Positions 8,642 to 60,100 of a stretch of DNA of 64,000 nucleotides are shown here, one piece after another. This stretch comes from Asterochloris sp. CNOR1. Taxonomy: Eukaryota; Chlorophyta; Trebouxiophyceae; Trebouxiales; Trebouxiaceae. Each line of letters starts with the position of its first letter. Positions within the stretch are counted from its first letter, which is position 1. The notes below the pieces were generated by a model that saw nothing but the letters and a program-made list of their open reading frames with translations, did not search any database and had not been told where the DNA came from. The translations under genes were made by a program, and so were the position numbers. The DNA lies in contig OZ017749.1 of the NCBI GenBank assembly GCA_963969365.1, positions 3,472,001 through 3,536,000 of the forward strand, written 5' to 3'.

Positions 8642-11600
8642 ATGCACAGATATGGTGCGCTGGCTGCAGGGCGGTTTGATGAGGCTCTGAGCCTGTTCAA
8701 CGAAGCTGTCAGGCTCTGCACACAAGACCAGCTGCCTGCGCTGCACAGCAACCGCTCAGCATGCTTCCTCCAGCTGGCCCAGCCCCAGGCAGCGCTGTCT
8801 GCTGCCCTGCTGGTGACAGCTCTGAGGCCTGCCTGGCCCAAGGGGCACCTCCGCCGTGCATTAGCGCTAAGCGCACTGAAATGCTTCCAGGAAGCCAGCA
8901 CTGCAGTCGAGCAGGGCCTGCAGCTGGCCCCTGGCGATGCAGATCTGCTCGAGATGCAGCAGAGCCTAGCTGAGCTGCAGCCAGGAGCGCGGCCAGGCTC
9001 CAGCGCTGTCTCTGCTGTACATGTTCCGCACAGTCATGCAGGTCGGCTAGCTTAGTCAGTATGCTGGCTGCATGCCGAGCATCGACGCAATGGACAGACT
9101 GCACCACGCTCACTGCTGCAGTATAGCGCATGTACTGTGTGCTCCAGTGACGACTGGTGGACCTTGAGGGATACATTGTATTTGTGCGAGAACTGTGACA
9201 CTTAGGCAAACCTTTGCCATGTTTCAGTGGTTGTCGAGACGATGTTAAGCGTCCTGTGGGTGCAGGCAGGCGCAGCAAGCTCCCAGTGACCATCCTGTCT
9301 GGCTTTCTGGGCGCTGGCAAGTCGACGCTGCTGAAAACCATCCTGCAGAGCACCCTAGCTCAGAAGGTGAGCAGCTGAGCAGTGGACAGCAATGCGGCCT
9401 CAGTGTTCTGGTGCAGGCAGATGATTGAGCTTCTCAGTGTGGACCTGACAGAGTTTGCATAGTGCCTTTTCTGGCCACGGCATGCCAAAGCATGGACTAC
9501 CTACCTGCTAGATCTGTCCTTGGTTATCACAAGCTGCAGTGCAATGTGCATGGCAGCAGCTGCGTCAGGACTCTGCTATTGGTGTGGCTCACCTAGACTG
9601 GTTGCTGTCATCAAACTCTGAAGAAGAGAAGGGCGCAGGATGCTATGCAGTGGATAACACTCACGCAGGATAGGACTGTCTTGGGGGTTTCTGCACACCA
9701 TGCCGTCCTTGGATGCTGTGCAGGTGGCCGTCATTGTGAATGACATGGCTGAGATCAACATCGACGCCCAGCTGGTCAGCCGGGGCAGCAGCCACAGTGA
9801 GGGCATCGTTGAGCTGACCAATGGGTGCATCTGCTGCACCCTGCGGGATGACCTGGTGCAGGTGACACGCCCCTTGTTCAAACATCTGCTGCTTGGCCTG
9901 GTGCAGCTGAGGTGACCTGATGGGCCCAGCACAGGCAGTGACACCGTCCACGCAGAGCTCTGCAGACCGGTCCCCAGGCGTGCAGCATCTGCTGCATGCT
10001 GCGCAGTGATGGTTGGAGGCCACTGGACCCAGGTGGCGAAGCGCCGCAACCGCATCAGTATCCGGCGCATGCAGCACAGATCCATGCAAGTGATGTCCAG
10101 CAAAGGCAGCAGCTTGGTTGACGCGCGCAACTGTGCTGCAGGAGGTAGCGCAGATGGCTGCAGAGGGTACCTTGGATCTGCTGGTCATCGAGTCCACCGG
10201 CAAGCTGCTCCCGCTTGGGCTCAATGAGCCCAGCCCGCCTGGCAGGCAGACACTGCCTTGCAGGGCCTGCATCTGTTGTGTGCACTGATGGCAGCTGTCA
10301 AGTGCACAGGCAAGCTGCTCCTGCTTGGGTGCATGAGCACAGCCAGCCCTGCATCCGGTGCTGGCATTGCAGGCCTTTGCTGGCAGGTCCCTGCACACAA
10401 TGGGCCCTGCCGCTGCTGCTGGTACGGCGCTTGCTGTCTGCAAGCTGCAAAACAGCTGCTTCTGCTTCTGGTGTGTGATTTGAAGGCGGCCATCGGGTGC
10501 ACAGGCAAGGTGCTGCTGTGCCTGCATTGCAGCTCTGTCACCTGCGCTGGCCAGTACAACGGTGCTCACCGTGCTTCAGCACCAGCTTGGCAAGCGATCT
10601 CAGCAGAGCTCCTGTGTGAGCAGCCTGTAGCAGCTGCTGCAGCCGGTTGTTTGCAGTCGCAATGCATCGGATGGAGCCAGTCCCTGGAACAAGACCTTCC
10701 CTGTGCCTGCAGGCATCAGCGAACCCATGCCAGTTGCTGCAGCCTTCTACTTGGAAGAGGGGGGCCGGCCCACCCTGGCAGACCTGACTGAGATTGACAC
10801 CATGGTGGGGCCTTGTCTTTTTGCTTTCTTGTCTTCTGCAGGCTGCAGGCCCAGATACGGGCTGCAAGGCCAGGGCTGCCCTGCAGCGTGGGGCTCTGCC
10901 ATGTGGTGGCACGCCTCTCATCATCCATCGGCCTGAGGTTGCACCAATTTCAGGTCACGGCGCCTCAAGCCTGCCACACCTTCCAGGCTCCCTGTGTGCC
11001 TGGGTGCTGCTGGGCCTTATCACGTGCTCTGGCCTGCCTGCAGGTCACGGTGGTGGACGCCAGCACCTTTGGCGCTACCATGGCCAGCAGCGCCACCCTG
11101 CAGGACTCAGGCCAGGCAGCCAGCGCCCAGGACCGGCGGAGCCTGGCCGGACTCCTGACAGACCAGGTTCTGGCTGCTGATACCTCGACTGCAGCCGCAC
11201 CACAGGGGGGTGGCGGGGATGGGGTGTAAAGTGGGGCTGCCTGCCTGCCTGCCTGCCTGAAGAAGCAGCAAGCTGGCCTGCCTGGCACCTGCACAGCATC
11301 GGCAGCCTGCCTGGCCATAGAAGCAGGAGAAGCTGGCCAGCCTGGCACATGTCCAGCATATCTGGCTTGTCCTCGCGCACAGCGGTGCAGAGGCAACCAC
11401 ACTGGCAGAGCCACACTTAGAGATCCCGAGGCATGCTACCGGCGCAGCGGTGCCTGAGGTAGTTGCGGCATCTGCTCTCAATGCAGCATCCTCAGCCTGG
11501 TTGGTGGTGCCTGCAGGTGGAGTTTGCAGATGTCATTCTCCTCAACAAGACAGACCTGGTGGGGCCAGAGCAGGCTGCCACAACCCAGGCCCTGCTGCAG

Positions 11601-13800: not shown

Positions 13801-16800
13801 CTATGACTGGTCCTCCAGCAGAGGCTGCCGCAGATAGCTCTCCGGTTCTGTCAGGCCGCCAGCAACTGTGGGGACAGCAGCCTCCTCCTCAGGCATGGCA
13901 AGCGCCTCGCCAGTATCTGCAGGCGCCTCTCCGGGAACAGCAGGCTTCTCTGCAGCGCCTTCAGCACCAGCAGCGGGCTGGCGCTTGACCACCACGCCCA
14001 GCAGGAAGGTGCAGCTGCAGATGATGACTGCGCCAGCCAGTGACAGGCGGTTGGGCACCTGCACAGACCGGTACTACAGGTCAGGCGGGGGTCCCTGCTC
14101 CCAGCATCTTTGCTCCCACAAACTGAGCTGTGAGATCTCCCCTGCTTCCAGGGTCTTCACAACCTCACAGTGAGAAAGGTGCACACCAGCAATGGCAAAA
14201 GGTGAGAATGGCATGCACAGCAGCTCGCGAGAACTGCTGCGAGTGCATGCACTAGGTTGTGGCCAGGTTATTCCTTCGAAACCAGTGTCCTGCCTCCCTC
14301 GGCAGTGGCTCACTTCGTGGAAGAAAAAGTAGCCGCCCAGCAGGCCCCAGACGATGCTGAGGTAGCTCATGGCAATAGCTGGGGCTGCTTTGCAGTATTT
14401 CAGAGCAATTGTCATGCAGATCTGCGTGCCGTACCCAGTCGTCCCTGCAACAGTGGCACCAATCCAGTCAGTGCATTGCGGCTGCTGTTGACACGGAACT
14501 CCTCTATGCTGTGCAGATGCAGCCCCGCGTGGGCAGCGCACAGGGGCAAGGACTTGCTGTGGCACTGAGCAACAAGAAGACTGCAAGACACCTGAAGCAG
14601 GCAGGTGCCTGCTGCAAGGCTATACAGCCTCGATGATGCTGCCCTCCAGCTCAGCACTGGGATCATGCATGAAAGCAGGTGCAGCGGAATCTCCCCTGCA
14701 CCCATGACAGTTGACATACAGCTGCACAGAAGCACAGGAGGGATGCATGAAAGCAAGAGCAAAAATTTCCCTGCCCTGCATGTATGTCACTTGACACGGA
14801 GCTGCTGTGCTGGGCAGCCCTTAAGGGAGTGCAGGACTGCAGGTGCAGTGCTGAAAGGACGTCAGCATGTGCACTTGGCAGAAATCAGATGGCCTGTGCT
14901 GAGCAAGCTGGAGGGCCATCAGCCTGTACATGCGACAGCACAAGAGCACTTTGGCTGAGCAGGAAGAAGGCTGCCAGTGTGGACAGGTAGCCAACAAGGG
15001 TCTGACACAGCCTGCCAGTGGGAGAGAGCCGCCCTTACCAAAGAAGAGACAGACATTCTGTGCACCAGCCTCAGTGAACACCCACCCATCTTTGGGGAAA
15101 AGCTTACCGACGAGAGCAAACAGACCCCAGTCCACAGGCGCTGAGGGAATGACCACGCCTGCCCGACCAGTCAACCAGCTGACAGTCAGGGCAATGGTGG
15201 CAAACACGGTGGATGAAAAGGAGAGGTAGAACACACTGACGTTGGCAGTGTCTGTCTTCCTCAGCTCTCGCACACACATCTTGGCACAGGCTGAGAAGAA
15301 GGCCTGCACAGGGGTGTGGAAGTGAGCTGGTTGTGCTTGCCTGGTGGCGAGGTGAGTCACACTGACAACCATGGGCATGCGAGGCAGAGGAGCTGCTCCT
15401 CTTGACTGGCTGATGGAAATTTGCGGGGTTTAGGGTTGTGTGGGTAGAGTGTATGCACCCCATGAGGTGCTGAGCGGGGGCAGCGTCGAAACTCCAAAGA
15501 GCTGACGCCTGAGCCCGCGCAGCGAGCTGCTTTGCTAGGCCAATGATGGAACGCTGCAAGGCCGGAAGCAGATCAGATGCCAGAGCCTAATCCAGGCACC
15601 ATGGCCACTGGGCTCAGTCAGCCCAGATATCTGCTCTGCATGCTGGAAAGAGAGACCTGCGAAACCCACATGAGCAGCAGCACAGCATCAAGCCTGCAGC
15701 TTCCCACCCATCCACATGCTTATGGCCATGACTAAATTGCTGCGGTCCAACAATGAGAGATAGAGGTGCACAAACTACAGTCTAGGGGCTAAAGGCCATG
15801 CCTAGGTTGCTGTGCTCTAGACATGAGGCACAGAGGTGCACAAGCTAAAGTCTAGGGGGGTCATGACTAGGTTGTTGTGCCCCCAGACATGCGACATAGG
15901 GGTGCACAAGCCATAGTCTAGGAGCCAAATGCCATGACCCACTTGCTGTGCTCCAAACATGCGACATGGACTGCATAAGCTAGAGTCCGGGGGACAGCAG
16001 GAGCTCACCTGTCCACAGGCGCAGGCCATGCCCAGGTAGCTGCGCTTCTTGCCGTCCGACATGCCCAGCGCGGGGGGCTGCGTGATGAGGATGACGCCCA
16101 CCAGGCACACCGGGATGGCGGCAATTGTCGCCCTGCAGGCCCGGGGCAGCATGTCAGCCAATGTGGTCTGAGCTCAAGGGAACCGCATTTGCATCCAGGG
16201 CTGCTTGCGGAATAACCTGAGTGCTGCGGCTGTGCATCTGCCTCAACAGGCTTGGGCCACATGTGCACCTGTTATGCCAGCTTGTCATGGGGACTTTCCA
16301 TGGCTGCCTGCACTCTGCACAAGTCTACAGCTTATCAAAGTCCAGTAGGCAGCTGTCCCAGCACACCAGGTCTGCATCAGGAGTTGCTCAACGTACCTGT
16401 GTGAGAGGCATCGAAAAGCAGTGAAGCTGCTCAGCAACAAAGCAGGCGGCCACCCTGTGGCAGCATCAGCCTGCTGTCTAAGCTGCTGCAATGCCAGAAA
16501 CAACCACAGCCTACAACCTCTCCAGCAAGCCCCTCTCCCCAGAGGACATCATTTCATGAGGAACAAGACTGATGTAAACTACCCTGGCAGCTGCACCTGC
16601 CACCGCACAGCATCCCAAGCTGGCAATTGCTCCAGCCTCTCATCATTAGAACACAGAGCACAGCAGGCAGGCCAGGCCCAAGCCACAAACCAATGTATCC
16701 TCTCTTCTCAAGAGCCGGCCAACTCAGCCTGTTTCAGCTGTCATCATGCCAAAACAGCTCGAAAATGCAAGCAGCTATCAATCACTGGGAACAACCTCTC

Positions 16801-20414: not shown

Positions 20415-23400
20415 GCGAAGCAGATGGCGCTGCCCCACGGCCACGCCTGGCCACCTTGATGGTGCAGTGCCCCGACAAGAAGGGCGTGGTGGCTGCCCTG
20501 GGGCAGCTGCTGTACGGCCTGGGCTGCAACATTGTGGAGAGCGATCAGTGGACGGATGCTGACAGCGGCACCTACTTCCAGCGGTGAGCGTGGGTGTGTG
20601 AAGCATGGAAATTTAGCACTGAGCCACAGTGCTGTATGACACAGTGATTTCAGGGGTTGGGGAAGCAGGGTTGTCCACTTTGGACAACAGCAGGCCTTTG
20701 AGCCTGATGGCAGAGCTGCCCCTGGGTGCACGCTTCAGGCATCAGGCTCATCTTTCACAGGTGAGCCCTGAGATAGCAGTGTGTAGGCATCACGGTCTGC
20801 ATCAAGGGCCAGACCGTGGGGGAGGCAGGGCTGGCGGTGAGACGACAAAAGGGTTGAGGGCAGGGCTGTGCAGCGCAGGCCAGATGCAAGCACCAGGGGG
20901 CTTGTACCTAACAGTGAGCCCTGGAGTGACGGTGATTGCGTACTGTGGCCATCTGTTGGGCACTGCAAAGTGGGCCCAGGGTCAGTCTGAACTTGATGAC
21001 CACAGGCAGGATGCAGACTGATTGCAGAAGGGCCTCAGAGACCTGATGTGCAGCCTTCCTGCATGTGCCAGCGGAACCATGGTACGAGTCACTGGGCACT
21101 AAAGAAGTGGCGCTTCCCTGACTAATATGCAAAACTCAACCTATGCGCCAGCAAATGGTAGCAATGCAAGTAACAGTGCACATGCTGGTGTGTGGAGCGC
21201 CCGTCAAGGGTGTTGCTGGCAGCCCAGGAGGCCCACGAGGGCTTTCAAAAGCTGTGCAATGCTGGACTGCTCTGTGGTGGCTCACTGGCGATCATTCATG
21301 CTGGTGCCTTGAGAGCAGGTGCCTGTTCCTCTACCTGCCTCTGGCCAGCAAGCTTCCGTGCCTCTGCACGGCTCCTGCCTTTGGGTTGTTCCACATCGCC
21401 ACAGGCAGGCTCTGTGCCACCAGGCAGACAGCAGCTGCAGGTTGACCACAGCTCTGTGCCAAACTCTCGTGGTGGACTGGGGTGACATGAGTAGCTCACC
21501 AAGAAGCCTTCATGTCCACTCCTTGCACAGCATTGCCAAGCCAGCCCACCTAGCGCCGTCTCTTTTTGAGTTTCATGCTGTGCAATGCAATTGCTCTCAG
21601 ATGGGGGTTTTCGTCAGCAGCCGTCCTATACTGCCCCACAGAGCTGTCTGTCTTGCAGGATCCGGCTAGACTACGGTGACATGCTGGTGGGAGCAGGCAA
21701 CACAGACATTCTGGAGCGCAGCATTGCAGAGCTGGCTGCCCGCTACAGCATGCAGTGGCGCGTCAGCTATGGCTCCATCACCAAGCGTGTCGCTGTGCTG
21801 GTCAGCAAGCTGGACCACTGCCTCTGGGACCTGCTGATCAGGCGAGATGGCACTTATTGTATGCAGTGGGTGAACGCGCTGTTGGGCGTGCTCGCAAGGT
21901 GCTCTGATGGGTGTGTGCCGGGCAGTGAGCTGATCACTGCCTCCTCCTTGGACCTGCTCATGAGGTGGGCTGGCACTGGCTCAACTGTGGACTGGCTACT
22001 CTCAGATGCAACTGTGTGGGCTGCTGATGATACCCTTCTGGTATCTGTCAGGGGGCATGGCCAAGGGGTCTCAGGGGGCATAACTGTCGATTCACGGGGG
22101 TTTTGGCCGTGCAGTAGGGCTCAATCTGCTTCAAAGTGCCTGTGCACATGTGCAAGGTATCCTGCCCTCACGTTTGGCCGCCTGCCAGTGACACAAGTCA
22201 AGCCGCTGCACCTCTCCCCCTGCAGCCAAAGGCGCCGAATCCTACCTTCAGCAATTTTGGGGCCCCTCCACTGCTCACAGGCAGCAATGCTACCCTGTCT
22301 CACCTCTCTTGCTGCCCTGCAGGCATAAGGCTGGGGAGCTGAACTGTGAGCTGCCCATCATCATCAGCAACCACCCCGACCTCGCCCACATCGCAGCCAC
22401 CTTTGGCATTGAGTTCCGCCACATTCCCATGGCCACGCGCAATGCTGCGGGCAAGGCGGCCCAGGAGGCCGAGATAGACTCTGTCCTGCAGGAGCTGGGC
22501 ATTGACCTCATTGTCATGGCGCGGTACATGCAGGTGGGGCATGAGGTCTAGGGTTTCTGCTGGTTGTGAAGGTCCCAGCTGCTGCTCATGTAAGGTGGAA
22601 GTGCACAGTGATGGCCAGCCTGCAGCCTGGCCAGCAGCAGCAGCCATATGGCTGCATGCGCACATATGGCTGAATCACTGTCACAGCAGATCATGGGCAA
22701 GCTGCAACCAGGTGGCGGAGCGCAGCACATTGCACAGCTGTCATGGCTTGCATATCTGCCGAGACAGAACAGCATGTCCCTGGTGGACCTGAACTGCATT
22801 GCTCCTGTTTCTGCCCCACACCCACCTTCTTGCCCAGTTGGCCTGCCGCCCCTCAACTGCTTTAACAGGAGCTTTGTTCCCAGCAAGCTGTGCCCACCAG
22901 CACTGGCTCCTGCCAAGAGCACCATACTGTCTCCGCAGGTGCTTTCTGAGGACTTCTGCCGCAAACATGCTGAGCACACCATCAACATCCACCACAGCTT
23001 CCTCCCAGCCTTTGAGGGGGCCAAGCCCTACCACCGTGCCCACCAGCGGGTGAGCTCTGGATGACCGCTGCACTTGCTCATCAATTGTTGATGGCGGGTC
23101 GCACTCCCTGAGCAGCTCATGGTAGGCCTTGGAGAGACCCATGGCACATGTGGGCCAGGTGGGGGCCGGTGCGACATGCTGTGGGTCTGTACGAGGGGAG
23201 TCAAGTGAGCTGTGCTGCTGTTTGGCCTATCCCATGCGTCATCAACACTGTCACTGGACCACCCATTTGCTGTTGCATCCTATCATTGGTGTTGCAGCCA
23301 CTGTGCCAAGCCGCTGCTGAGTCTACCCTTTCTGTGCTGATGCTAAGAAGAGTTGCCTTGCCTGCTGACTTTGACTGATGTGCCCGCAGGGTGTGAAAAT

Positions 23401-23761: not shown

Positions 23762-23977
23762 ACTCGTCCTTGGCCCCTCCTTTGCGATTAGCGACCCGCA
23801 AAACCCCCCCCACCCCCCGACTCCAGCTTGGTGTCAACCATTCTGTATTGAATGCATGAACAACAATGATTCTGAAGCAATGTCCCTCATTGTTTGAACA
23901 GCATGGGCACCCTCAATTGCGGGGTGTGAAAAGCTCAGGTTGGGTTGACTGGCGTGCTCTCTGATTGCTGGTGTTTG

Positions 23978-25083
23978 TCAAAGGTGCCCTGCTGCCGCCT
24001 GCTGCGGGAGGCACTGCCCCCTTTGCCTTGGCAGCAGCATCCCCCTGCAATAGAATGGCATCAATTTGCTGCATGCTGCGCCAAAGCCGTGCACCTTCGT
24101 GGACTGAGACATGCTTGACATGGGCCACAGACAGCTGACTACTGCACATGCAGCAAACAGCAGGGCAGTAGCGACAAAGCCCACCTTCATGAGCTGAGAC
24201 ACCCTGGTTTTGCGTGTGGGGCTGCAGATAGCCTGCACCCGCGCCATGATGCGGGCCTCCACTGTGCCCAGGTCGCCGCCCTCACCAGCTGCTGCAAAGG
24301 AGGCGGCTGCTGGGGCAGGAGAGTACTGCCCTGCCTGCCGTGACATCGCGGCCTCGATGGCAGCGGCTGCGCGACTGCTCAGGCTGCCATCTCCACTGAG
24401 CTGCCTGCACAGGGGTGATGCAAGGGGATGTGAGCGCAGGGCGCAGGTAAAGGGCCAAATCTCTTTAGCCAGCGCTAGGCAGCCTGCAAAGGAAAGAAAG
24501 CATTCAACGTTGCTGGGATTATGTCTCTGGGTAATGGGGCCAGACAGGTATCACAGCCTGGCTGCTGTGTCTCGAGGTGCCATCAAAGCTGAGCTGTCGG
24601 CACAGCGGGAGATATTTGGACTCTCAGCTGTGATTTGACATGCCTGCACAACAAGACTTCTGACTCCATGTTTACATGAACTGCAAGTCGGACCAATTCG
24701 TTCTAACTCAGTTTGTTGACGCGCATAGCGATGGACGAGCAGCATGCTGTGCAATTCAAAAATCACACCTGCTCCACCCACTGGGGCCGTCATCAGTGTG
24801 TGCATGCACAGGGCTGTGTGAGTTGACCACTGTAAGGCAAGGCTGTTACCTGTTTGAAGGCCTGGCACATGCTAGCAGTGCACCATACTGTGCAGAGTAG
24901 AACTCAGAGCAAGACCCACCTGCTGGGGCCATCAGCATCCAGATCTGGGCTGTTCTCCTTGCCGCCACTCTTGGCAGCACCATCGCCCTCGGGGGAATTG
25001 CCCTGACTGTCACAGGCCAGTATGCTGTGCAGGCTGGCGGCTGTCCCTTGCACTGCGCTGCCGATGGCCGCCTCGATCTCCTC
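23978..25083 (-). CDS. Unidentified protein with a C-terminal membrane anchor
   Basis: Two exons are well supported: 25083-24920 (GAG GAG ATC onward, ending AG|GTGGGT) and 24404-23978. The joined text runs EEIEAAIGSAVQGTAASLHS, then SPEGDGAAKSGGKENSPDLD, then RAAAAIEAAMSRQAGQYSPA, and a basic stretch TRKTRVSQLMK just before one strong hydrophobic helix (VGFVATALLFAACAVVSCLW). The tail after the helix is about 37 residues in this frame; a splice there could change it. The layout suggests a tail-anchored protein with its bulk in the cytosol, or an inner-nuclear-membrane protein. Upstream exons very likely exist up to about 26.3 kb (for example a frame containing PLYVTPNSKRNMMLAGRG near 26.1-26.2 kb). 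I do not recognise the family. The gene is convergent with PurU. Confidence 0.55.
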
Positions 25084-25163
25084 CTGCAGGCAAGAGGGCA
25101 GGGAGTGGCCGTGGTGACGCTTGTGCCCTGCACCGCACTGCCAGTGACTGCCTTCAGCTCCTC
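25083..25163 (-). repeat. Tandem copy of an exon 5' edge with its acceptor
   Basis: The exon starting at 25083 (TGCAG|GAGGAGATCGAGG, protein EEIEAAIGSAVQG) is preceded 80 bases upstream by TGCAG|GAGGAGCTGAAGG starting at 25163 (protein EELKAVTGSAVQG). Both copies have an acceptor and an open frame at the start. Confidence 0.7.
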
Positions 25164-25904
25164 CTGCATGGGTGTAACAGGTGTAGACGCGCAGTGCAAA
25201 GCACTTGACGTCTCTTGCCTGGATTTTTAATTACACGCAATGGCTTGCTGCCAATGAATACCCTGCACCCTCTCACAGCCAGCACCGTCGTGTGCCCCAG
25301 ATGTTCAAGACCCGCTGTTGTGCAACTTGCCAGCCTGTCATGCCCTGCTCAACTCAGCGTTACTCAATCTGGCTTTCCATCATGCTGCTCCACACAGTCC
25401 TCCTCTGCTCAATGCAGCATGACATCTACTCAACAGAGACCTACATTTGACAGCCGGACAGGCCCGCTCTGCTCCGCAACTCCAGGCACGCAGCCCCACC
25501 ACTTCAGGCATGCAGCCCCCTCAAGGCTTCAGGCACGCCCCTCCAGTGCTTCAAAGGAACCAAGCTGCATCAGGCGCTTTAGACAGCGCAGCTGCTCTGC
25601 CCAAACCGTGTTGCCATGAACAGCCTGAGGAGCCTTTGTGTACAGAATGTCTGCTGCAAAAGCCATAACCAGGTCCTGCCAAAGCAACATGGAGGCAGCT
25701 GTTGTGCTGCTCGCCTGTACAGTGTCCTTCTGAAGCAGGGTGCCCACAACCAGGCACTACCACACGATGACACAGCTCCGCTGCTGTGCTCAGCAGTGAG
25801 CATAGGCATGGTGAGTCAGTGTCACGCATGGACGTCCTCTCCCTTGCCGGCATCCTCCTCTTTTGCGCCAACAGAGCTTTTTTAACATGGCGACCTGTCA
25901 AGTA

Positions 25905-26165
25905 GAGCCCCACTCTGGGACTGCCAGGCAATGCCACCCTGGCCCTCCGTCCTGCCAGCATCAATTTGCCCTGACAGCCGACTTCACTGGTCTGAGCCAT
26001 GCCAAACAGTCCTGTGTCATCCCCCTCACAGCTGTGATGGCACGATTACCAACAGGCGGCATCAGCAGCTGTCAGGCAGGGTCCCACTTTGGACTGCCAG
26101 ACTGTGCCGCCCTGTTCGGCTGCCCTGCGCCCCCTCCCCGCCAGCATCATGTTGCGCTTGGAGTT
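25905..26165. repeat. Direct repeat about 185 bases apart
   Basis: Plus-strand CCCACTCTGGGACTGCCAGG with a downstream CCAGCATCAATTTGCCC (25911-25970) recurs as CCCACTTTGGACTGCCAGAC with CCAGCATCATGTTGCGC (26088-26157). On the minus strand the copies read GKLMLAGRRAR and KRNMMLAGRGRR. This is either a duplicated exon or an exon plus a decayed copy. Confidence 0.6.
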
Positions 26166-26749
26166 GGGCGTCACATACAGCGGGCGCTGCATCAGGCTGG
26201 CTGGCTGGACGCACGAGCGCTCTGACGCGGAACGCGACGTGGCGTGCCCTGCCTGGGGCAGTGCTGCGTGCTTCACTGGCACCCGCGCCCTGACAGCCAG
26301 GTACCTACAACAGATGCAGTGTCGCAGACAGCTCAGCAGACTGTAGCAACAGTAGAGCAGGCAGGGCACTGGGCTGCTTTGGTCAGTGGACACTTGCCCT
26401 GATGGCCTGGAACCTGCAGCAGGATGCTGGAGTCTGGGCGCCGTGCTGCATGCTTGACAGGCAGCCTTGCTTGCCTGGAGCAGAAGCTGAGGCTAGGGCA
26501 GCCTTCCAAAGTAGGACCTTGCTGGACAGCCTCCCAGGCGGGAGCCAGCACTCTGCTGGCTCAATGGCTGCTTATAGGGTATCAATGAAACCCCAGCTCG
26601 GGTCCCTGCTGGCCTGTACGTACCCCAGCCTCACTGCACGCCTGCTAGCCTGCTTGAGGTGAAGTAATCCACACTGCTCTGCACAAGCCCCCTCAACGCT
26701 TCTCCAGCACCGTCACTCGCTGCCAGCTTGGAGGGTCTGCCCAAGCACG

Positions 26750-29700
26750 TTAGCTTCTGCAGGGGCAATGCAGTGCCTATCAGGGCAGTGGCCTGCCCAA
26801 GCCCTAGCTGCATGAGCCCTCACCGCACAGCCTGCTCCAGGTGGAATCGCTCCCTGAGCAGGGCCATGCACTCCCTCCTCATCTCCTCCAGCTCCTGCTT
26901 CAGGCGCAGGTGGTACTGGATCTTCTGCTTGGGGTTGTTGTGTCCCAGGCCTGAGGTACCCAACAGCTCCTGCAGGCAGAGGCAGGTCTGTGTGCGCAGC
27001 CGCCTCTGCAGGACATTGTTGCGCCTTGCGCCTGCAGTCCCCAGCAGCCACATTCCTCACAAAAATGCACCGGCGTTCAGCAATGTAAACCTGCAGAAGC
27101 ATCGCCAGAAGCAGAACAAGCCCCTGGCCCCCTCATAGATGTACCCTGTCTATTTTGCTTGGCTGGGCAGGCAGTCTTGCTGAGGCAGCAGGCTGCAGCA
27201 CGACACTCTGCATGCCTCACCTGCAGGTCTATCTCCATCTGGCGAGTGCGGCTGGCCAGCAGGGCATTGTCCTCAGCCAGGCGCTGCATCTCAGATGCCA
27301 TGGCCTGTCCAGCCTCTGCTGCCTCTCGGGCTGCCTCTGCCTCTGCCTGGGACGCTGCCAGCTGCTGGGCTAACTCCTGCACGCGATCCTGCAGGCCCGC
27401 AGGTGATGCGCTGAGTCATCACAGAAAGCACGTTGCCATCTCTACTGCAGGCTGGCAGGTAGCCCTGCTGCAGAGCGAGCACTGACATGCAGATCTGCAG
27501 CATACGCAAGGCTGAGCCCATCTGCAGAAGATCAGCAGCAGTCTTGTGACTCTAGCCTGACAAGCTGCTAGCTGCTAAGGCAGCCCCTACACCTGGTCCT
27601 GCAGCTTCACAGACCATGTGTAAGCTTGACGCCTTTGATCTAAGAGCAATGACGTTTGTGAAATTTGCACACGCTCCTGCAGGCCCTTAAGAGCTCCTTG
27701 TGCGTATGTGCATGCCAATCATGCTGGGAGGCTGAAAAGATCTTGCGTGTTTGCCCTGCTGGCAACAGCTGCTTTGTCAAGCCCTGACTGTGCACCCTTC
27801 ATGCAGGGCAGGTACGTTGCAGCATTCCAGGCTGGAGCAAGGTGGCAGCAGACCACTGGCCACTAGCTTCACCTCAGGATGCGACGCAGCTGCCTGCTCC
27901 AGCTCTGATTGCAGCTCTGCAGCGCGCTTGTCAGCCACTTCGAGCGCTGCATATGCTGCAGCCTGCTCCTCCTGCAAGGACACAGTGGCAATGATCAGCT
28001 CTGCAGAGAATGCTGCCAGTCTAACTGGCTTGGGGCTGCCTGCTCTGCTCCAGCTCAGGTGCAGGACATGCTTTTGTTGAACATAAGCAAGTCCAGAAGG
28101 CTGCTAGTGGGGCTCACTCTCTCTCAAGCATAGCACATGGGGCTGCGCCATGAGTGGTGTTTGCAGTCAGGCAGGCAAGATCCCTGGAGCTTGATCAGTC
28201 AGCAAGAAGGCAATGCAGCAAGCAGAGCTAGCTGAAGGCATCCTACAGCTGCACAGTTCTAGGACAGCAGACGGCCACAGCTGTTGCTGCCGGCATTGGC
28301 CGCACGCCTGCGGAGTCAGAGATGGCCTGTTCCAAATTAGCACAATGTGAACCTGACACTGAACCTGCCTGGGTGCCCTCTGCCTCCTGCAGCTGCATCC
28401 GCACCCTCTGCAGCTGCTCAGCCATCTCAGCACCTGCAGGATGACAGTGAACTCTCCACCCACAGCCCACAGTTTCCTGTCAGTGCATCCATGCCACAGC
28501 CTTGACATTGTGTGCAGCCAATAACAGGTGCAGGCTGACACATGTACAGCTTCCCTCCAGAGGTGGGTGCTGTTGCAGGCCGCCACATGTTCGGCTTGCC
28601 TCTAGAGGTCAGTGCTGTTGCAGGTTGCCACATGTACAGCTTGCCCCCAAAGGTCAGTGCCCTGTGTGAAGCTGCAGCAACGCTGAAGGTCTCCATGGGC
28701 TCCACTGGGCCATCTAACAGCAAGGCAAGGGGCTGGCAAGCCTTTCCACAGCACACAGCACGGGCTTCCTCACCAGCTGCTTGGTGGGCGGCCACGTCAG
28801 CCTGGCTCTCCTCCAATTGGATAGTCAGGGCTGCTGCTGCAGCATCAGCCTCCTGCTGCCTTCCCTCAGCAGCGCAGAGTCTTGCCTGTAAACCCATAAC
28901 CAAGCTGTCAGCCTGCACAACATCTACCCTGCATGCTTGTGCTTGGTGCCCGTCTCAGCAGGCAGCAAAGTGCCCACAAGGAGCCAAGCTGCTGAACAAC
29001 ATACAAGACCCTGATGGGCATCCCCTGTCTGCAGCCCCAATGGACTGCTGTGCTACCTTTGCAAGTGATCTAGATGAGCCAGTCAGGCCGACACCTCCGC
29101 GAGCAATTGCTGCCAGCATTCAATGCAGAGCGTGGATTGATTCTAGCAGACACAGAGGTGGCCTTGCTCCAGGTAATCTTGCTGCAGCTGTCTGGGCTTC
29201 CGCGACAGGCTTCTCAGTTAGCCCCTCAAAGCTCAGGGACACATCCATTCCGCTGCTTTGCCTGGGATGCAGCTGTGTCAGCATGTACACACTCGTGCCC
29301 CAGGTGTTGAGCGAGACAGATCTTGCCTGCAGCTTGGTCTGCGCTGCAGCTGTGTCGGCCTGCAACTTCTCATGCTTCAGACGCCACTCGGCCCCCATGA
29401 CTGCTGCAGTTGTCTGGGTCTGCTGCAATCTGGCCTGGACACTCTCCAGGTGGGCACGTGCCTCATGCGCCTGGGCATCAGCTGCAGCCTGTTGCGCCTT
29501 GGCAGTCAGCCTCTGCTGCTCCAGCTGTGCTGCCGAAGCAGCCAGGTCTGCCGTCAGCTTCCCTTGTAGCTGCTCAGCGACCACCTACAGAAGCAGGTGG
29601 TTGTCAAGTGCCTCCCTGCATGGAGGGGCAGCTTGGAACATGAGACCTGCACTAGCTGGGACAATAGCATGCGCAGGAGTGCAGATAGTGGTGGATTGCT

Positions 29701-43752: not shown

Positions 43753-44051
43753 CTGGGCGGGATGCCTGCTGTTTCAACCATCGTGCTGTGGGTCACTCAG
43801 GCATATCATGGCATTGCTTGGGACTCATAGAGGCTGCCATGAGCTGGGCACCCTGCAGCAGTGTGAATGTCACTCTGGCTGCTGGAGGACCCTGGATTCA
43901 ACGCGGCAGCTGCATGTGTGACATTGCGCATCTGCTGTGGAGGCAGCATTTCCTGGTCACAGAGGCTGCCTGGCCTGGCATCCTGCAGCACTGCAACCAT
44001 TGCGCCCATTGAAGCGCTCATGTCGTGTCTTGCCACCCTGTGCATGCTGCC

Positions 44052-44978: not shown

Positions 44979-45017
44979 AGAGGCAAGGCAGAGCCCACCC
45001 AGCAAGCAGGCAGACAC

Positions 45018-50607: not shown

Positions 50608-53600
50608 TCAAATCATGTATTGCTCAGCTGGGCTTCTGCCCCCCCAAGGGACTGCTCCCGAGGAGTGTGCGCGCCTCTGCGCCGCGGTTGGCGCAGCTGC
50701 CTTCCCTTCTGCACCATACCCCGCAGCTGCTTCTGAGTTTGGTGCGCTGGGGTCATGCCACCGAGGGGGCGCAGGGAACTGCACCCCATACGACGCTGGC
50801 CCACCCCAGCTGCTTGCCACACCAGCAGGCACCCTCTGCTGCTGATGTGTGGCACCAAAAGACGGCTGCTGGTAGGTCGAACCGGTGGCAGGCTGCTGGT
50901 ACTGGTAGTTCGAACCGGTGGCAGGCTGCTGGTACTGGTAGTTCGAACCAGTGGCAGGCTGCTGGTAGGGTGCAGCACTGAGGCCATAGTGCACTGGCAC
51001 CTCTGGCGCAGAGTAGAGGTGCTGCTGCTGCGGCGGCTGGCCCCACATCTCAGCTGCAGCAGCGCGGTAGACTGGCTGGGGTTGCGGGCCCTGCACAACA
51101 TAGGGGAGCGACTGTCAACGGTTTTCACTTTGTAGTGTGGAAATATGCATCAAGTGACATCTTCAAAGCAGGGCTCCCTGCGGGTGGAAGGCACTTATGC
51201 CAGCCAGCTGAAACCCGGCCCCATAGGCGCAGCACAACTAGCTGCAACTTATCTGGAGCCCTGTGTAGAGACAGCGGCAATGTCTACCAAAGATCAAGAA
51301 ACAAGATCCATGCAGCAGCGCCCATGTGCAGTCTCATGGCACCTGTCTGGGCTTACACCAGTTGCAACACTGTGACTCCTGTTGGAACACCTGCCAGCCT
51401 GTCAGCAACACCACAGCTGGAGGCAGCCGCCACCTGTGCCAGCTGGAGCCCTGAACAGGATACTCAGCGCCCACCTGAGCTGCGCTGCTGGGGCGCTTGC
51501 CAGCGGCAGCACCGGGCTGCACCGGCGTGAAAGCCTCAAACCCATGGACGCCTGCAGCAGCGCCAGCTTGTCCCGCTGCCTCTGTGGCAGCCGTACCCCT
51601 CCCCATGCCGCCACTTACATAGCTGACACCGCCAGCAGGACCTGCAGCGCAGGTAGACATTGCGGTGGGCTTTGGAGTCCCCACAGGCTGTGTGATGAGT
51701 GCGGGTTGAAAGGCGGCGGCCGCAGGTGGCCTGCAGAGCAGGGCAGCATGCTGATGAGTAGCGGGGCAGGGCTTATGTTGGGCCATGGGGTGGACATGAG
51801 GGCATGGTAGCAAGATGCTACCGAACAATACAAATGGGCCACAGCTAGGCTTGGGCACAGGTGGGGGTGGCCACAGCAACTGCAGCAAGGGCAGGGGCTG
51901 AGCACTTGGGAAAGCGTCCTGCAAGGGCAGTGTAAACCTGCAGAGTTTGGGGGTTATAGCTCTTTGACCCACCTGCCCCCCTGCGCCCCTGCCAGCTCCA
52001 CCACTTCCCTGGGGTCCTCTCTTGACCTGAGGCCCCAGCACACCAATATGAACACAATGGCAGCCGCAGTTGAAAGCAGTTGAAGCCACATGAGCGATGT
52101 GATGCCTGTTGGCTCCAGTACATGCTGGACGCAAAGGTCTGGCAGGGTGCGCAGTGTGTGCACATAGTACAGCAGGCAGGGCAGGAAATTGCTGCTCACC
52201 GTAGGGGCCTGCAGGTGTGCCCTCCGGTCCAGAGGGCCCCACTGGATGTGTAGGGTCTGTGCTGGCGCCACTGTACTGCCTGTAGCTACGCTTGGCGCCC
52301 TGTATCAGGGCAGGGCGCTAGACTGGATGCAGCAACTGCAAGGGTTAGTGAGGAGGGCTGGACAGCAGCCACTTTGGAGTGTCTCAGCAGATCAGGGCCG
52401 GACCAAAACAGAATGCTCTGTGCAGACATCAGCAGCAGTGCCCCGATAACGGCCCTCTGGCCTCTGCACAGCAGGCTGCCCTGAGCAGAGCCAGCTGTGC
52501 GCTGCACATGAAAATGTGCAGCGATTTGAGACTGGTGCAATAGGCTGCCTGCTCTCAGCTGGCACACTCAGACAAACCGACACCTTCAGGTGATGCTGCA
52601 CGTGTGTCAGACTGCCATGTTGTGCCTGCCACCTCTGCAAGGATGAGCACTTGACACCACAGCTGTGGCTTACCTGCATGACACTGGCAAGTTCCTCCAT
52701 CACGGCTGTGGCGCTGCCGCGCTGTGCAGGCGTCCTGTTGACGTCATAAAAGGCTTGGCCAAGCTTCCTGACTGCCTTGGCTCGGGTGCGCAGTTCTCGC
52801 CTGTTCACCCCTGGCTCTGAGAGGACCTGCACCCAAAGCAAGGAGCACTGTCAATCAACACTGTTTCCAATCTTTGCTGCAGCGCTAGCAAGCTGAGCTT
52901 CCTGACTGCCTATGGTCAGGTGCACAGCTCTTGCCTGTTCACATTTGGCTCCACACGGACTTGCATGCAGGGCAAAAATGCGTGAGGATGCCCTGCCAGG
53001 CATGCATGCTGACCCTCATCCAGGCTGCTATGCACTAGTCTAGGGTCGCGGCCTGAAAGGCACTGCTCTCAGGTTGTAATGCTGGCAACAAAGCCCTCGA
53101 GGGATACACATTGCGTACCCGCCCACAGCTGGCAAGGAAGGGATGCCCCACCCTGCAGTGCACCCCTGCCTGATGTGCCCACAGCTGGCTGTCACCACGA
53201 GTTGCATGATGTCAGCTTTGACAGTGCTGAGCACCTCACCCACAGCCGGCTGTCACACCTCTGGGCAGGATGTCACGTCTGACTGGTGCTGGGCATTCAC
53301 CCACAGCCGGCTGGCAGACCTTGTTGCATGATGTTACGTCTGAACTGTGCTGAGCAACTCACCCTGTCCACCACGCGGCTCAGTGTTGACTCGATGTCCA
53401 GCACGTTCAGTTTCCACAGACTGTCTGTGATCTGCTCCTTCTTCTGCTCAAAGAAGAGCGCAGCAGTTGCATCTGTGAGCTCCCCTGTCTCTAGTCCCTT
53501 TGCAGCTTCCTGTAGGCACAAACAACAGCAGGTTGCACTTATTGTGTACAGCATGATACGCAAATGTTTCCTGACGAGTGACCATCTGCTGCACCTGTGA

Positions 53601-56600
53601 AGCCTCCCAAGCACTGCTGACATCGCCAGCAATATACGTTAATGCTGTTGATCTGACTGACCTCATCAGCCACTCCAGGCTCCACCACCAAGGGGGCAAG
53701 AGATGGTGTGTGCAGGATGTGAGGTGAGCCAGCTGCTAACTCAACACCAAGGGTGCAACCTCTGCACCAGCACTGAACGTCCCGCATCCGTTAGACCTGG
53801 CACAGGCTTACACATCTGCTCCTGCTATCTGTGACAAGCTATCCGTGCAGTGAAGCCCTTGTGCCATGGAAGCCCTCCACTGAACTTCTGCCACCTTGCG
53901 CTGCCCTTGCACCTGCTGCACCTCCACCAGGCTATTACAGCTCCTGACATCCATTGCCAGCAGCCCTACACCAACAGCCAAGGTGACGCAATGGTAGACC
54001 TCGCCATGGAAATAGACGGGCTGAGGCTTATCATGCCACTCTGCTGGGGAGCAGCTGCCTGCTGCTATGTACAATGCACAATGGCTGCCCACCTGGTGCA
54101 CTCTCTTCCAGCTTGACTGTGCCCATCACCCTCCACAATAAAGCCTGCTGCCTGGACTTGCCTGCTACACCTTCACATACCCACAAACCGCACTTATGTT
54201 TGCTGCCCTATGCCCCAAAAGTCACCTGCTGCACCTCCATCATCTTGACTGTGCCCACCACAGCGTTGAGGGTGGACTTGATGCTGTGCCCGCGCTGCCG
54301 CATCCACTCTGCAGCAAAGGGCACCCCAAGCATCTTGGGGTCCTTGCCTAGCACCAGGGCAGCCCGCCTCATGTACATGTACCTGCAGCATGAGAAGCCA
54401 GCAGCCTGGAACACAGTGCTGTAGGGGTCTTATGGGGTGCCCTACTGCTCTGCAGCACGACACAATTGCACAAGCAAGGCTCACTGTACTAAGAATGCAG
54501 CATGTTAGGCAATGCCAGGGTCTGCTGCAGGGCAGCACCCTTGCTGAAGTATTGCGAGACATGCTGTGCAAGGCAGGGGATTTCATAGTAATCAGCAGCC
54601 AGGGCACGGCATGGACGAGTATGCAGGCACTCAACCTGGCCAGCCCTGCTCATCCCAGCCAAAGTGGGCAACGCTGACAGCACTGCCTACACATGCATGT
54701 ATGGACCCAGAGGATGCAGTGCAAGGCGCACAGCCACTCTTAGGCAGTTTGAAATCACATCCACTGGCACAGCCAGCGCTCGTATTGTCAGGCAGGCTTT
54801 AACCTCTTCACAGAAGCAGTGGAAGTGACAGTAGCGGCAGGAGCATGAGTCTTGAGTGATGTGAGAGGGCACCATGCAAAAGCACACAGGCGACTGCTTT
54901 TCCATAGCAAGTGCGACTGGCATCGCACCCGATGGTGTGGAGGAAGGCGGTGCCAAAGGCCTTCTCTGACAGGTGCTTGGCCTCTGACATAGCAGATACC
55001 ACAAACATGTCCTCATCCCCTTGCACGAAGGGTGTGATCTTGGTCCGCAGGTTGTTGATCAGCCTGCGCTCCCGCTCCTGCATGAGGCACCCAGACAGCT
55101 GAGCTACATGCTCGCGTTATTTCGGAGTCACAGCTGCCTGGCTAGGCGCAAAAAGGGAAAGCTTGGTCTGGGCTCTGCAGCCGTACATGTCCAAGATCAT
55201 TAGAAGTCAAGGCAAGCACATCTCTTCTGCTTGTATGGCCATGATAGGCAGCTGCTGAATTCAGCGTCCCAGCTTACGGCGGCAGCCGCTGCTGGCTGTG
55301 CGCTTGCAGCAACATGAGCTGGATGGTGGCAGAGGTGACGACGTGAGCCCAACATGACCCACAGCAGGAGCCCAGGTCACCAACGAGATTTGCAAGCATG
55401 CCAAGCTCACCATTTGCATGACATTGAGGCGCTCTGTGGCCTTCTCCTTGTTCTCCTCGCCTCCCAGGCCAGCCAGCATGGCCATCTGCAGGCACAGTCA
55501 CCCTGTCTTGGTGGGCATTCTATAATGCCCCCAGCAAGAACCTGCTCCACCGAAGGCACAGCTGTCTATGTTGATGTCTGACTCATGCAAGCACCCCGCC
55601 ACAAAAGGCTCCTCCACAGACATGGCTGCCTGTGCTGGTGTGCGACCCATCATGCGCCCAACCAGCACATGCTCGTGGTGTGCCAGGGATGCATGTCTGC
55701 CTTGGGGACACATCTGTGCTCGTCACAACCAGGAGGCCTTGTCAAGGTGCACAGATATGCTAGATGCAGATATGCTTAACATGGCTACTGCCAAGGCACA
55801 GTTTGACAAGGGGTTGGCCAGGCTTGCCCTCAGAGTGCTGGAGTCTGTGAGGCGGCCAGCCATGCTATGCAGTGATTCAGTTAGGCCGCCAGCTAAGGCA
55901 AGCAAGCCTGTGACACCCCAAGACCGGCTTGCCAGCTCCTGTTTTGTTCCAGGTGTGCCGTGCTGACCTGCAGCTGCCCGATGTACTCCTCAAAGGCATC
56001 GCTGCCGAAGAGCATGCCAAACACGGCAGCTGGGTCCATGAAGCCAGCGCCGTCAGCGATGCCCTGCTTGCCATGCTCATCATACTTCACTCGCTGACTC
56101 GGATCTGACAGCACCTGCAGTCAGGCTTGAGTTAGACACGTGAGGTGCAGGTTAGATAGTCTGTGGGCCCAGAGGTGTTGCAGTGGCCAGGCTATGCTGT
56201 AGGTCTGTGGGGCACTCAAAAGCTATGCTTCAGCTCCACGAAGTAACCTGCATTGCAGTGGCTGTGCCTGTGCAGTGTTGCTGCTATGTCTTTCATCCTG
56301 GGACACTGACTCCCAGCCTGGTCAGCGGCTTCCTTGGCGGTGGTGCCCTTCATGGTCAAGACTGACAGCCGCTGCACCTCTCGTGGCCACAAGCAACCCC
56401 CTGGCAGGGGGAGCTGCGCACAAGTAGCAAGCTGGCAGTATACCAGATGCAGCCGAGTAGCAGAAGACAGTTGCAGCCTCCAGTCTGCCCTTCCTGCATC
56501 TGACAATTTCTCAGGCCTGCTGCAACATGGCAATTTCAAGGGCGCCATGGAGTCACCTGGTAAGCTTCTCCCAGCTGCTGAAAGTTTGCTGCAGCCTCTG

Positions 56601-56793: not shown

Positions 56794-57169
56794 TGCTACA
56801 GGGAGCGGCCTTCTTCAAATGTGTTGTGTTCTCCCTTGGGCACTGAGAAACGGTCTGCCAGCTCCCTGGGCCGTTCTGAGGCTACGCCTTGGGAGCTGAC
56901 AACTGTAGGAGAACTTTGCCAGTGCGTGTCACAGTGACCAGGGTGCCACAAGATGACTTGCTGTACGCAGATCTACGCCTCTGCCGAGTTTGGTGATTTC
57001 CGGTGGAAGAAGCTGGCTGCGAAGAAGGCAAAGTCTGAACATGACCTCCATCTAAGATTCCATAATCTCAGATCCACAGGGCCCAGTGCTGCTGCTGTAG
57101 CAGACTCTTCCTAGTCTGGAAAAATACCATGCATCTCATAAGCCAAGATGCCAGGTTGCATGCCTGACC
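56794..57169. promoter_or_regulatory. Divergent promoter region, DnaJ and SET genes
   Basis: This is 376 bases between opposite start codons. It holds several GAAGAAG and TTCTTC blocks (for example 56811-56820 and 57003-57025), but I could not find a strict nTTCnnGAAn heat-shock element. No TATA box is obvious. Confidence 0.45.
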
Positions 57170-60100
57170 ATGATGTGGCCAGCAAGGGGTAGTGCCATGC
57201 TCATTGCCCTCATAGTGCAGACATCAGCATCGCATGCATCCCAGAGCCAGCATCCAACAGCTGCCCTGAAGACACTGCTGGAGTGGGCCCCATTGATGGG
57301 CATCAAATGCCCCAACATTGGGCCCTACATATCTCCGTCAGGGCTGCAGGGGATGGCCGCAATACAGGACATCCGGGCTGATGAGGTTCGCTCAACCTGT
57401 TGTGCCGAGAAGACACCGCAGCAGAGGCGGCAGCAAAGCAAGTGTCCATACTTCATGATAGAGCCAAGCTGCACTTTGCTGTTGCTGGAGCGCAGCTGGG
57501 CCTCCCTATTGGGATAGTCAGTCACTGGCATGATTGTGCGCTTTGCATTGCACAGCACATGTTGCCCAGCACCAATCATCAAAAGCTGCCATTCAAGTCA
57601 GGCCTGCTGCTGTGTAGGTCGTCATCAGTACGCCACTGGAGGCCACCATCAAGGTGCGCAGCTTATGTCACCTCTACCCTGTTGCACAAGGCCTGTGCAC
57701 TGGCTCTGCATTGGATGTGGAAGGCAAGTAAGCTGGATGTGCAGTGTGTGCAGTCTGTGCTACCTGGCAGTGCTGCTCTCCTTCTGCTATGAGCCTACTG
57801 CTGAGGCAGGGCATGGTTGACTCTAGTAGCTGCGCTGGGACTGCGTCTAGCAGCACAGGCCGAGCTTGCCGCTCAGGCCAGACATGGTCGACTTCTGTGG
57901 CTCCAGGACCACAAGCCCAGCCTGCTGCTCAAGCCGGGCATGCTCGACTCCTTTGGCTGTGTTCAGTCTGCCTTTAGCAGCGTAGGCCAAGCTTGCTGCT
58001 CAGGCTGGGGTCAACTTCTTGGCTGCTGTCACGCTGGCCCCAATCTGCTGCATAACCTCGATTTTCAGCAGCACAGCCCTGCCTGACTGCAGGCACGGCA
58101 GGGCCAAAGCAACCCAATCCCCCACCTGGTCAGCTCCAAGCACTGGCAGCTCATCTCAGAGCAGCAGCACGCGGACCAGGACCACCACTGGCAAGTGACC
58201 TGCACACCCAGCACCGCCTCTGACAAGTCATGATCTTGAGAGCTGTCCTGACTGGGCTGCCTGTCCCGCGCGGGCAGAAAACATATGTCTGACTGGACAT
58301 CACCCCGCCAGATTGCTTGCATGACATGCACAGCCCCACCACTCATGCCTGTTCATATCCCAGCAGTTATACATGATGGGACAGACCCTCTTTCTGACAG
58401 GACTTCCTGGCATAGATGTTGTCAAGACCTGCTGGAATCTGCCTGACAGCATAACAGAGCTGTATGCAAGCTAATGTACATGACGAATCGGCAGACACAG
58501 GCAGCGCTGCAGCAAAGCCCTGGCTCATTGCCCTGTCAGAGTGCTGCACAAACTGCTGCACAGCTGCACCACAGCCTGCCCGATCACTGCCAGTGCTGCT
58601 GTGGCTGGCACATGGTCCCACCATGCTGCAACATCAGCTCACCCTGCAGTGCTGGGACAGCAGCAGCCAGCTACAATGATGTAAAGCACAAACATCTGTG
58701 GGCACGCCCTGCAGGCATGAGCCCTTGACGCTGCTCCTGCTGAGCGAGGTGCTGGCAGGGCCACGCAGCAAGTTTCAGGTGTACCTGCAGTATCTGCCTC
58801 AGGAATATGACATCCTGCTGCTGTGGGCGCCTGAAGAGCTGCAGGAACTCCAGGATCCTGTGCTGGAGGCAGAGGTGAGGCAGGAGCCCTGCCCAAATTC
58901 AGAGAGGGTCTAGGATTATGAGTGTTCAATGCTGTATCATGGCGATCCGGGCCGTTCTGCTGCTGGCAGTGGTAAGGGGCTTGTTTGAAAGCTGGAGGAT
59001 GGTGCGTGTGGGGCTGCATCCCTGAGTGGTCGAGTGCAGGGTGCCGGTACAAAGCTGCGCAGCTGCTGCTGTCTATTGCATTTTAGAAGACTCCAGGGTT
59101 GAGCACAGTAACAGGCTGGAGCCACAAAGGGTCTAATGAGAGGCCCTCATGTAGCCCACATTGGTATTGTTTGCCATGTGGTCATGCACTGTGCTTGCCT
59201 GGCGGGTCATGCCTGCCCGAGGCGCGAAGCACCTGCAGCCAGAATTGTTGCCTGCCCCCTGACTTGGCTGGCCGATGCTCTGCCTGGACAAGCCAGCATG
59301 CTGGCAGATCTGCACTGCAAAGGGTATGGTCTGGAGGGCACAGCTGTTGCTCCCCACATCTGCAGGCCAGAGGGTGGGGGGGAGAGGCAATGCTCTGGAA
59401 TCCGCACCTGCAGATTTGGGGGAGGGCTGCAATGCTCTAGAGCCGCAGCTGCAGGTCAGAGGGCCCCTGCGATGCTCTGGAAAATTGCACCTGCAGGTCA
59501 GGGGGCCCCTGCGATGCTCTGGAAGCATCTAGAGGAGACGCCTGTGACTCCCCTGTGCCTCCAGGTCAGGGACGAGCTGCACTGCCCAGGAGGTCTCTGG
59601 GGAAGGCACCAGGGGGAAGACCTACATGGCGTCCACAGAGTGTCTGGAGCTTAGACCTGTGACTCTGTCTGCACATGCAGGTCAGGGAGGACCTGCAGCG
59701 CGTCCAGGCAGGCTACCGCCTGCTGCATCGGCAGCCCATTGTCAAAATGCACAATGTGACCCTGGAGCAGTACCAGTGGGCCGTGGCCACCTGCCGCAGC
59801 CGCTCGTTCGCCATTCCCCAAGCACGTGAGTGGCTTGTGCGGCCGATCCGGCTTCAGATGTGCAGTGGGGTTGTGAGAAGCAGGGAGGGAGCCATGCATC
59901 ACTTGTGCTGCTCTGGAGTCACAGCTGCTGCCTCCAAGCTTGTGAAAGGAACATCGTGCCGGGCAATGCATCAAAGCGTGGAGCTGATGCAGGATTTTGC
60001 TCTGCACCATATAACCCTCCCTGGGTGACACACTGCTGCAACAGTGCAAGCCTCAGCTAAACAATGCTGTGCAACCAGGGGCGAGGCGCTTGCATCCGCA

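Follow-up and report, generated by a model that had tools for sequence, protein, structure and literature searches.

The window analysed here is a stretch of 64,000 nucleotides from the green alga Asterochloris sp. CNOR1 (GenBank assembly GCA_963969365.1, contig OZ017749.1, positions 3,472,001 to 3,536,000 of the forward strand), in which introns hold local copies of the exon edges and splice sites that adjoin them. Five of the six window proteins tested have a Pfam match over most of the domain, namely to cyclin, CobW, formyl transferase (PurU), DnaJ with DnaJ-X, and EamA; the SET-like model has no Pfam match and owes its name to a reading of its sequence only. In a wider sample of the same genome, about one-third of the introns carry a local copy, now decayed, of the exon edge that adjoins them, splice site included. 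The guanine plus cytosine (GC) content of the window is 58%, and 31 matches to PF00504, representing exons of light-harvesting proteins, mark the genome as that of a photosynthetic eukaryote. In size (56.4 Mb) and GC content it resembles Asterochloris glomerata, for which the available part of the genome report gives 56 Mb, a GC content of 56–62% and about nine introns per gene (PMC6652019).

Genes were predicted with a custom exon–intron hidden Markov model (HMM) that was seeded on Pfam-matched exons and then retrained. The HMM often merges neighbouring genes on the same strand, and gene counts are therefore approximate. Its splice consensus is CAG/GTGAGC at the donor and CTGCAG/GT at the acceptor, the slash marking the junction. 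Among the predicted introns of the sample the acceptor consensus is an extended one, with T, G and C at positions -5 to -3 each exceeding 90%. Upstream of it, an earlier and since discarded gene model gave only a weak pyrimidine preference.

Seven gene models of the window, with 59 introns and 118 junctions, were compared with their own introns using 500 controls and a longer exon stretch than in the main test described below; two introns shorter than 150 bp were dropped. Thirteen junction copies in 11 introns were found at p ≤ 0.02, where 2.4 were expected, all of them in the CobW, coiled-coil, DnaJ-X and SET-like models. At p ≤ 0.01 a copy was found for 10 of the 118 junctions (reverse complement, 1/118), and at p ≤ 0.05 for 22 (reverse complement, 2/118). 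A preliminary description of the window had listed nine arrays in seven genes with an exon edge and splice site in the repeat unit; at the threshold used here this was confirmed for five genes.

In the CobW-like gene (plus strand; Pfam cobW), an exon end with a GC-type donor at 10188–10234 recurs within the intron at 10298–10343, with 39 of 47 bases identical at an offset of 110 bp (p = 0.002). The same intron contains a further plus-strand repeat pair at 10267–10334 and 10462–10527. The donor junction 9861/9862 of this gene (9827–9873) is likewise copied in the intron at 9985–10030 (34/48, offset 158 bp, p = 0.010).

The coiled-coil gene model (24185–40999, minus strand) spans seven of the copies. 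Both ends of intron 25084–26087 are duplicated, the acceptor junction (25042–25088) at 25122–25168 (36/47, offset 80 bp, p = 0.004) and the donor junction (26069–26128) at 25895–25955 (45/61, offset 173 bp, p = 0.016). The acceptor of intron 27389–27872 (27338–27394) has a copy at 27547–27604 (44/59, offset 210 bp, p = 0.002), and the donor of intron 28886–29326 (29315–29362) has one at 29238–29285 (37/49, offset 77 bp, p = 0.002). Acceptor copies follow in intron 36776–37308 (original 36735–36785, copy 36821–36871, 41/52, offset 86 bp, p = 0.004) and intron 37420–37703 (original 37405–37454, copy 37456–37507, 38/52, offset 53 bp, p = 0.002); at the latter junction Tandem Repeats Finder (TRF) reports a 51-bp unit repeated three times (37403–37556). 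The donor of intron 39000–39710 (39685–39769) is copied at 39439–39516 (62/85, offset 253 bp, p = 0.016).

The DnaJ-X gene (minus strand; Pfam DnaJ-X) also has an intron duplicated at both ends. The acceptor junction of intron 52827–53362 (52767–52841) recurs at 52901–52975 (59/77, offset 134 bp, p = 0.002), and a head-to-tail array of 3.1 units of 61 bp (53178–53364, p = 0.002) reaches its donor. The donor of intron 53510–54225 (54223–54261) is copied at 54090–54129 (33/40, offset 132 bp, p = 0.002). In the SET-like gene (plus strand), the acceptor of intron 58875–59680 (59656–59712) has a copy at 59541–59593 (43/57, offset 115 bp), at p = 0.016 in this design and p ≤ 0.01 in the main test.

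PurU shows a duplicated exon end at the protein level. Its exon end at 21794–21854 (plus strand), placed by homology to PDB 3w7b and followed by a GC-type donor-like site, recurs about 120 bp downstream at 21914–21977 (plus strand), in frame and open, both as a DNA repeat and in the 3w7b alignment. Query residues 29–133 and 169–355 both align to chain residues 102–107, and query residues 134–168 are unmatched in 3w7b; the shared residues thus give independent evidence, from the protein, that the second exon end duplicates the first. The gene model ran straight through the copy, an example of how errors in gene models reduce the number of copies counted. GC-type donors stand at conserved exon ends at window positions 10200 (CCG/GCAAGC) and 21842 (CAG/GCGAGA). 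The duplicated copy in PurU has a GT donor where the original has its GC-type donor-like site.

Judging by their coordinates, several conspicuous arrays lie inside introns without any exon edge, and the claim of an exon edge in every array is not confirmed. One of four 70-bp units at 15718–15993 (strand not assigned) lies 15 bp from the donor of intron 15304–16008 of the EamA gene and does not include its exon edge; others are at 11247–11359, 28529–28660, 59387–59524 and 57792–58051, some of the exon calls around them being weak.

The wider sample comprised about 354 kb of the 56.4-Mb nuclear genome, which is in 21 contigs. Besides the window, the sample took in 20 places of 10 kb each, picked arbitrarily, and the surroundings of exons for protein kinases and ABC transporters. 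It yielded 175 introns with two well-supported flanking exons, of which 167 are at least 150 bp long and 162 are unique after removal of duplicates from overlapping loci; counts over 167 introns precede that removal, and whole-intron tests on 159 leave out very long introns. In the main test, each junction was represented by the 70 bases around it, and these were aligned to the remainder of the intron they adjoin; 100 draws of matched length from other introns served as controls, and reverse complements were run as well.

At p ≤ 0.01, the donor junction, the acceptor junction or both recur inside the intron in 53 of the 162 introns; in a repeat run the figure was 56, against 4 for reverse complements. 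Copies were found for 32/167 acceptors and 31/167 donors (reverse complements, 2/167 and 1/167), and both are copied in 10 introns, with 6.1 expected. The first and last 60 exon bases alone find copies in 26/167 introns each, while exon interiors are at chance (1/130 and 2/127); mid-intron windows match in 15/167 and the last 70 intron bases in 13/167, and the reverse-complement controls of the main test give 0 to 4 matches per set. The result does not depend on one window design, five designs giving 43–59 of 162 introns against 2–6 for reverse complements, nor on one part of the sample: copies were found in 23 of 77 introns of the 10-kb places (reverse complement, 4), 8 of 35 in the window (0) and 25 of 50 at loci around Pfam matches (0). 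Introns touching a Pfam-matched exon have a copy in 14 of 29 cases (reverse complement, 0/29). When whole introns were compared with themselves, 49 of 159 exceeded all 20 of their matching shuffles in direct orientation and 8 in reverse complement, with 7.6 expected; an earlier, unfair control had given 59/159 and 63/159 and was replaced by these shuffles. Chance or base composition as the whole cause is ruled out by the shuffled and reverse-complement controls. The decayed intronic copies of exon edge and splice site proposed for the window are thereby upheld and extend beyond it, and the comparison of exon edges with shuffled pairings that had been suggested gives a strong same-strand excess within about 500 bp, as does that with reverse complements. 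Apparently, the copies were left by short tandem duplications that made the intron longer and the protein no different.

The copies could instead belong to an introner-like or other dispersed repeat family. Reports of introners come mainly from lineages that evolve fast, green algae among them. Like the copies described here, introners shape introns in many genes, algae included; as far as the accessible text of that report goes, they are dispersed mobile families (PMC9860276), whereas the present copies are strictly local. Window stretches 15700–16000 and 52750–53380, the two tested, match only themselves in the whole genome, on which ground a dispersed family is rejected for these two arrays. 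None of 123 acceptor junctions matched another intron of the same locus (its own and the next never being used), and the repeat units are local exon sequence. For the two arrays tested, this agrees with the earlier expectation that they are not one dispersed family, and such a family can be given next to no probability.

The 63 copies behind the junction counts lie 50–511 bp from the original (median 117 bp) and include a median of 40 bp of exon sequence. Extended alignments span the junction in 61 of the 63. None covers 90% or more of its exon, the largest share read from the table being about 70%; whole-exon duplication, as in mutually exclusive exons, was rejected on this count. Five better-preserved copies that were printed in full are all head-to-tail units. 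In L039, two copies abut with a 5-base CAGGT common to both, and CAGGT borders the unit on either side; in L042 and L037 the repeat extends past two units. The L037 copies derive from the end of an ABC-transporter exon, which we take to be the Walker-B motif, and have decayed.

Intronic copies decay neutrally. Differences between exon and copy are nearly flat over the three codon positions (202/946, 175/929 and 241/936), as expected if the copy drifts freely. The splice dinucleotides are retained in 20 of 31 copies (AG) and 18 of 30 (GT), about as the identity of neighbouring bases predicts, and so the copied sites appear neither purged nor kept. Hypermutation resembling repeat-induced point mutation was rejected, with 289 transitions against 329 transversions. 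The copies might nevertheless be functional alternative exon ends, that is, alternative 5' or 3' splice sites under selection. Splice scores at or above those of 90% of real sites occur in 25 of 61 copies, compared with 5.8% of background AG and 5.5% of background GT sites, and at such strength some alternative splicing is predicted; the PurU copy, moreover, is in frame and open. Against this, the distance from copy to true junction shows no clear frame preference (21, 15 and 25 copies at 0, 1 and 2 modulo 3), only 22 of 61 copies are open in frame, and differences are nearly flat over the codon positions. Selected alternative ends are accordingly judged very unlikely as the general explanation.

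Tandem duplication is better known as a source of new introns. In the Rogers model an intron is born when an exon piece bearing AGGT is duplicated in tandem, and a review, in the sections available, lists this as an intron-gain mechanism (Rogers 1989 and Hellsten 2011, as cited in PMC3443670). Such births would be easy here, as the donor CAG/GTGAG and the acceptor CTGCAG/GT both contain CAGGT. The present duplications share with that mechanism their head-to-tail order, the splice signals within the unit and an mRNA that can stay unchanged; arrays and alignments alike display head-to-tail duplication of genic DNA with splice signals. They differ in that existing introns grow. Donor and acceptor junctions of the same intron match in none of 167 cases at p ≤ 0.01 and in 9 of 167, the chance level, at p ≤ 0.05, and the copies sit inside the intron next to a surviving junction. 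Since an intron's two junctions do not match, the duplications represent lengthening and not birth from an AGGT-bearing piece, the probability of which we put as very slight; the intron gain considered in the preliminary description is not borne out.

The lengthening that it proposed is. The share of introns with copies rises from 1/23 at 150–250 bp through 7/41, 14/38 and 23/47 to 8/13 at 800 bp and above, and median length is 538 bp with copies and 344 bp without (Mann–Whitney p = 3e-6), a trend that is partly built in, as a copy needs room.

In a potato RdRp gene, tandem duplication of an intron/exon structure produced one recent gain in one gene, and a further duplication, of 83 bp, lies inside an intron of that gene (PMC4974935). 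The potato unit, like those described here, joins an intron end to an exon start and carries the splice signals of the parental structure; it is a single gain, whereas the present copies occupy about one-third of the sampled introns, are old and decayed, and show no sign of new introns. A Drosophila study treats intron sliding and novel intron positions (PMC2891723); nearby duplicate splice sites could likewise let an exon edge move, but the copies described here have no frame preference and look neutral. In the available passages of the review, the introner survey and these two studies, tandem duplication or elements figure as ways in which introns are gained or slide. Among the literature matches listed, consisting of titles and abstract openings with subscription literature thinly covered, none described introns growing longer across a whole genome through duplicated junctions.

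Duplication is not confined to junctions. When the window and the 20 places were compared with themselves in 10-kb pieces, 72 direct and no inverted repeats scored at least 28 (123 and 8 at a score of at least 22). Among the 72 are 53 with a spacing below 1600 bp, including 45 spaced 100–400 bp apart, and 17 of the 21 sources have at least one direct repeat within 800 bp. Matches of 10-mers in non-coding DNA are in 3.5- to 12-fold excess at offsets below 140, fall beyond that and reach baseline from 500. Introns contain 258 direct 10-mer pairs (117 when shuffled), and the gaps between genes at which the coding strand switches contain 146 (51 when shuffled), with 56 reverse-complement pairs there against 42. 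Tiled windows at p ≤ 0.05 match in 34/357 cases in these gaps and 58/459 in introns (reverse complement, 8 and 18). The repeats are same-strand, local and head-to-tail, as expected of minisatellite-like local tandem duplication, the intergenic part of this statement covering strand-switch gaps only. Taken together, this suggests that a general process suffices and that a mechanism tied to junctions is not needed, although low rates at gene ends weigh weakly against this.

The alternative is that splice sites or splicing start the duplications, through R-loops, transcription-coupled breaks or splice-like microhomology. Junction windows indeed match more often (63/334) than mid-intron windows (15/167), and the well-preserved unit of L039 has CAGGT on either side. 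A lower mid-intron rate is, however, predicted by two-sided decay. In a simulation that imposed 20% decay on the exon half of each of the 63 detected junctions, 16 copies stayed detectable, so that about 5% would be expected to be found mid-intron; the rate seen there was 15/167. The excess of direct repeats in gaps between opposite-strand genes also speaks against junction targeting, as do the distal exon breakpoints, which lie near AGGT, CAGG or GCAG in 9 of 60 cases (13.3 expected) and thus show no splice-like motif above chance. Junction targeting is therefore thought unlikely. For the stronger proposition that much of the intron length was built by a one-way ratchet, with exon-edge duplications pushed into introns preferentially at junctions, the case is doubtful, if slightly less so; were it true, introns would be archives of their own exon edges and would keep a lasting stock of splice sites of second choice.

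As to age, the description of the process as continuing was not supported. Where the exon part is 20 bases or longer, as in 53 copies, its identity to the original is above 85% in only 3. With a TRF score of at least 60 and a period of at least 15, the sample has 182 arrays and shuffled DNA 76; short-period arrays are too mixed with chance to be dated, and a period of at least 50, at which shuffled DNA gives none, was used. Of the 16 mainly non-coding arrays counted there, none reaches 85%. Young copies are the easiest to see and would be numerous under a steady process, so that their scarcity speaks against continuation; some young in-frame copies may hide in predicted exons, as in PurU. A past episode or a fallen rate is the more likely.

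The reading preferred here, and regarded as probable, is a general wave of short tandem duplications, lying mostly in the past, with selection as the filter that made the growth of introns one-way. The repeats show that the genome underwent much local head-to-tail duplication of short stretches, and most of the events look old. Duplications wholly within an exon would usually alter the protein and be lost. A duplication spanning a junction would place two splice sites in tandem, and if the outer pair stayed in use the mRNA would be unchanged and the extra exon edge and splice site would become intron. With the outer sites kept, such events can only lengthen the intron and would act as a one-way ratchet. 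The intronic copy would decay neutrally, as the surviving copies have, while the exon copy would be held by selection; junction events would therefore be recognizable for longer than non-coding duplications that decay on both sides, a point supported by the simulation. Slippage, template switching and fill-in repair of staggered breaks are candidate causes, and no recurring breakpoint motif was found.

A number of results count against a purely general wave, or temper it. Such a process should make outer gene edges act like splice junctions, but these match in only 1/46 cases at p ≤ 0.01 (reverse complement also 1/46) and 8/46 at p ≤ 0.05, which favours junction targeting; exon edges at predicted gene ends give 1/21 in one test, and 0/21, 0/26 and 4/71 under three settings in another. 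Gene ends are poorly predicted and these tests underpowered, making the discrepancy a weak one. Four or more direct 10-mer pairs occur in only 8/23 gaps (introns, 24/162), and stringent tile matches (p ≤ 0.01) are fewer in gaps (6/357) than in introns (16/459). Reverse-complement 10-mer pairs in introns also exceed shuffles (103 against 62), and the direct excess there is thus partly compositional. Of 12 window matches obtained with the 35+35-base design, six are absent from the p ≤ 0.02 list of the longer design; single near-threshold calls in the window are noisy, and the totals are not. All gene models are HMM predictions, and the description of the copies as unusually frequent rests on internal controls, Asterochloris alone having been measured.

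There is little explanation of how introns lengthen where transposons play no part, and discussion of tandem duplication has centred on intron birth. Oriented, datable junction copies in about one-third of the sampled introns provide a direct record of intron growth, and make the selection filter, under which only junction-spanning or non-coding duplications survive, numerically testable. They also supply many natural duplicated splice sites with which the preference of the spliceosome between copies can be tested. They are a warning, too, for ab initio gene prediction in such genomes, where a model can read through decayed copies, as happened in PurU.

One locus was excluded from gene finding and all tests. 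L001 (G000:C19:8667-12416) has its protein-kinase match in a single uninterrupted frame of 713 amino acids on a 43-kb contig (C19), unlike kinase matches elsewhere in the genome, which are mostly exon-sized; the contig is possibly from an organelle, a symbiont or a contaminant.

Repeats also occur within coding sequence. In the coiled-coil gene model the top five coding repeats (TRF score above 200) have periods of 84, 96, 105, 126 and 192 bp, all multiples of three, as are those of 32 of the 47 coding arrays in the sample. Such periods fit duplications that survive in exons only when in frame, although coiled coils repeat anyway.

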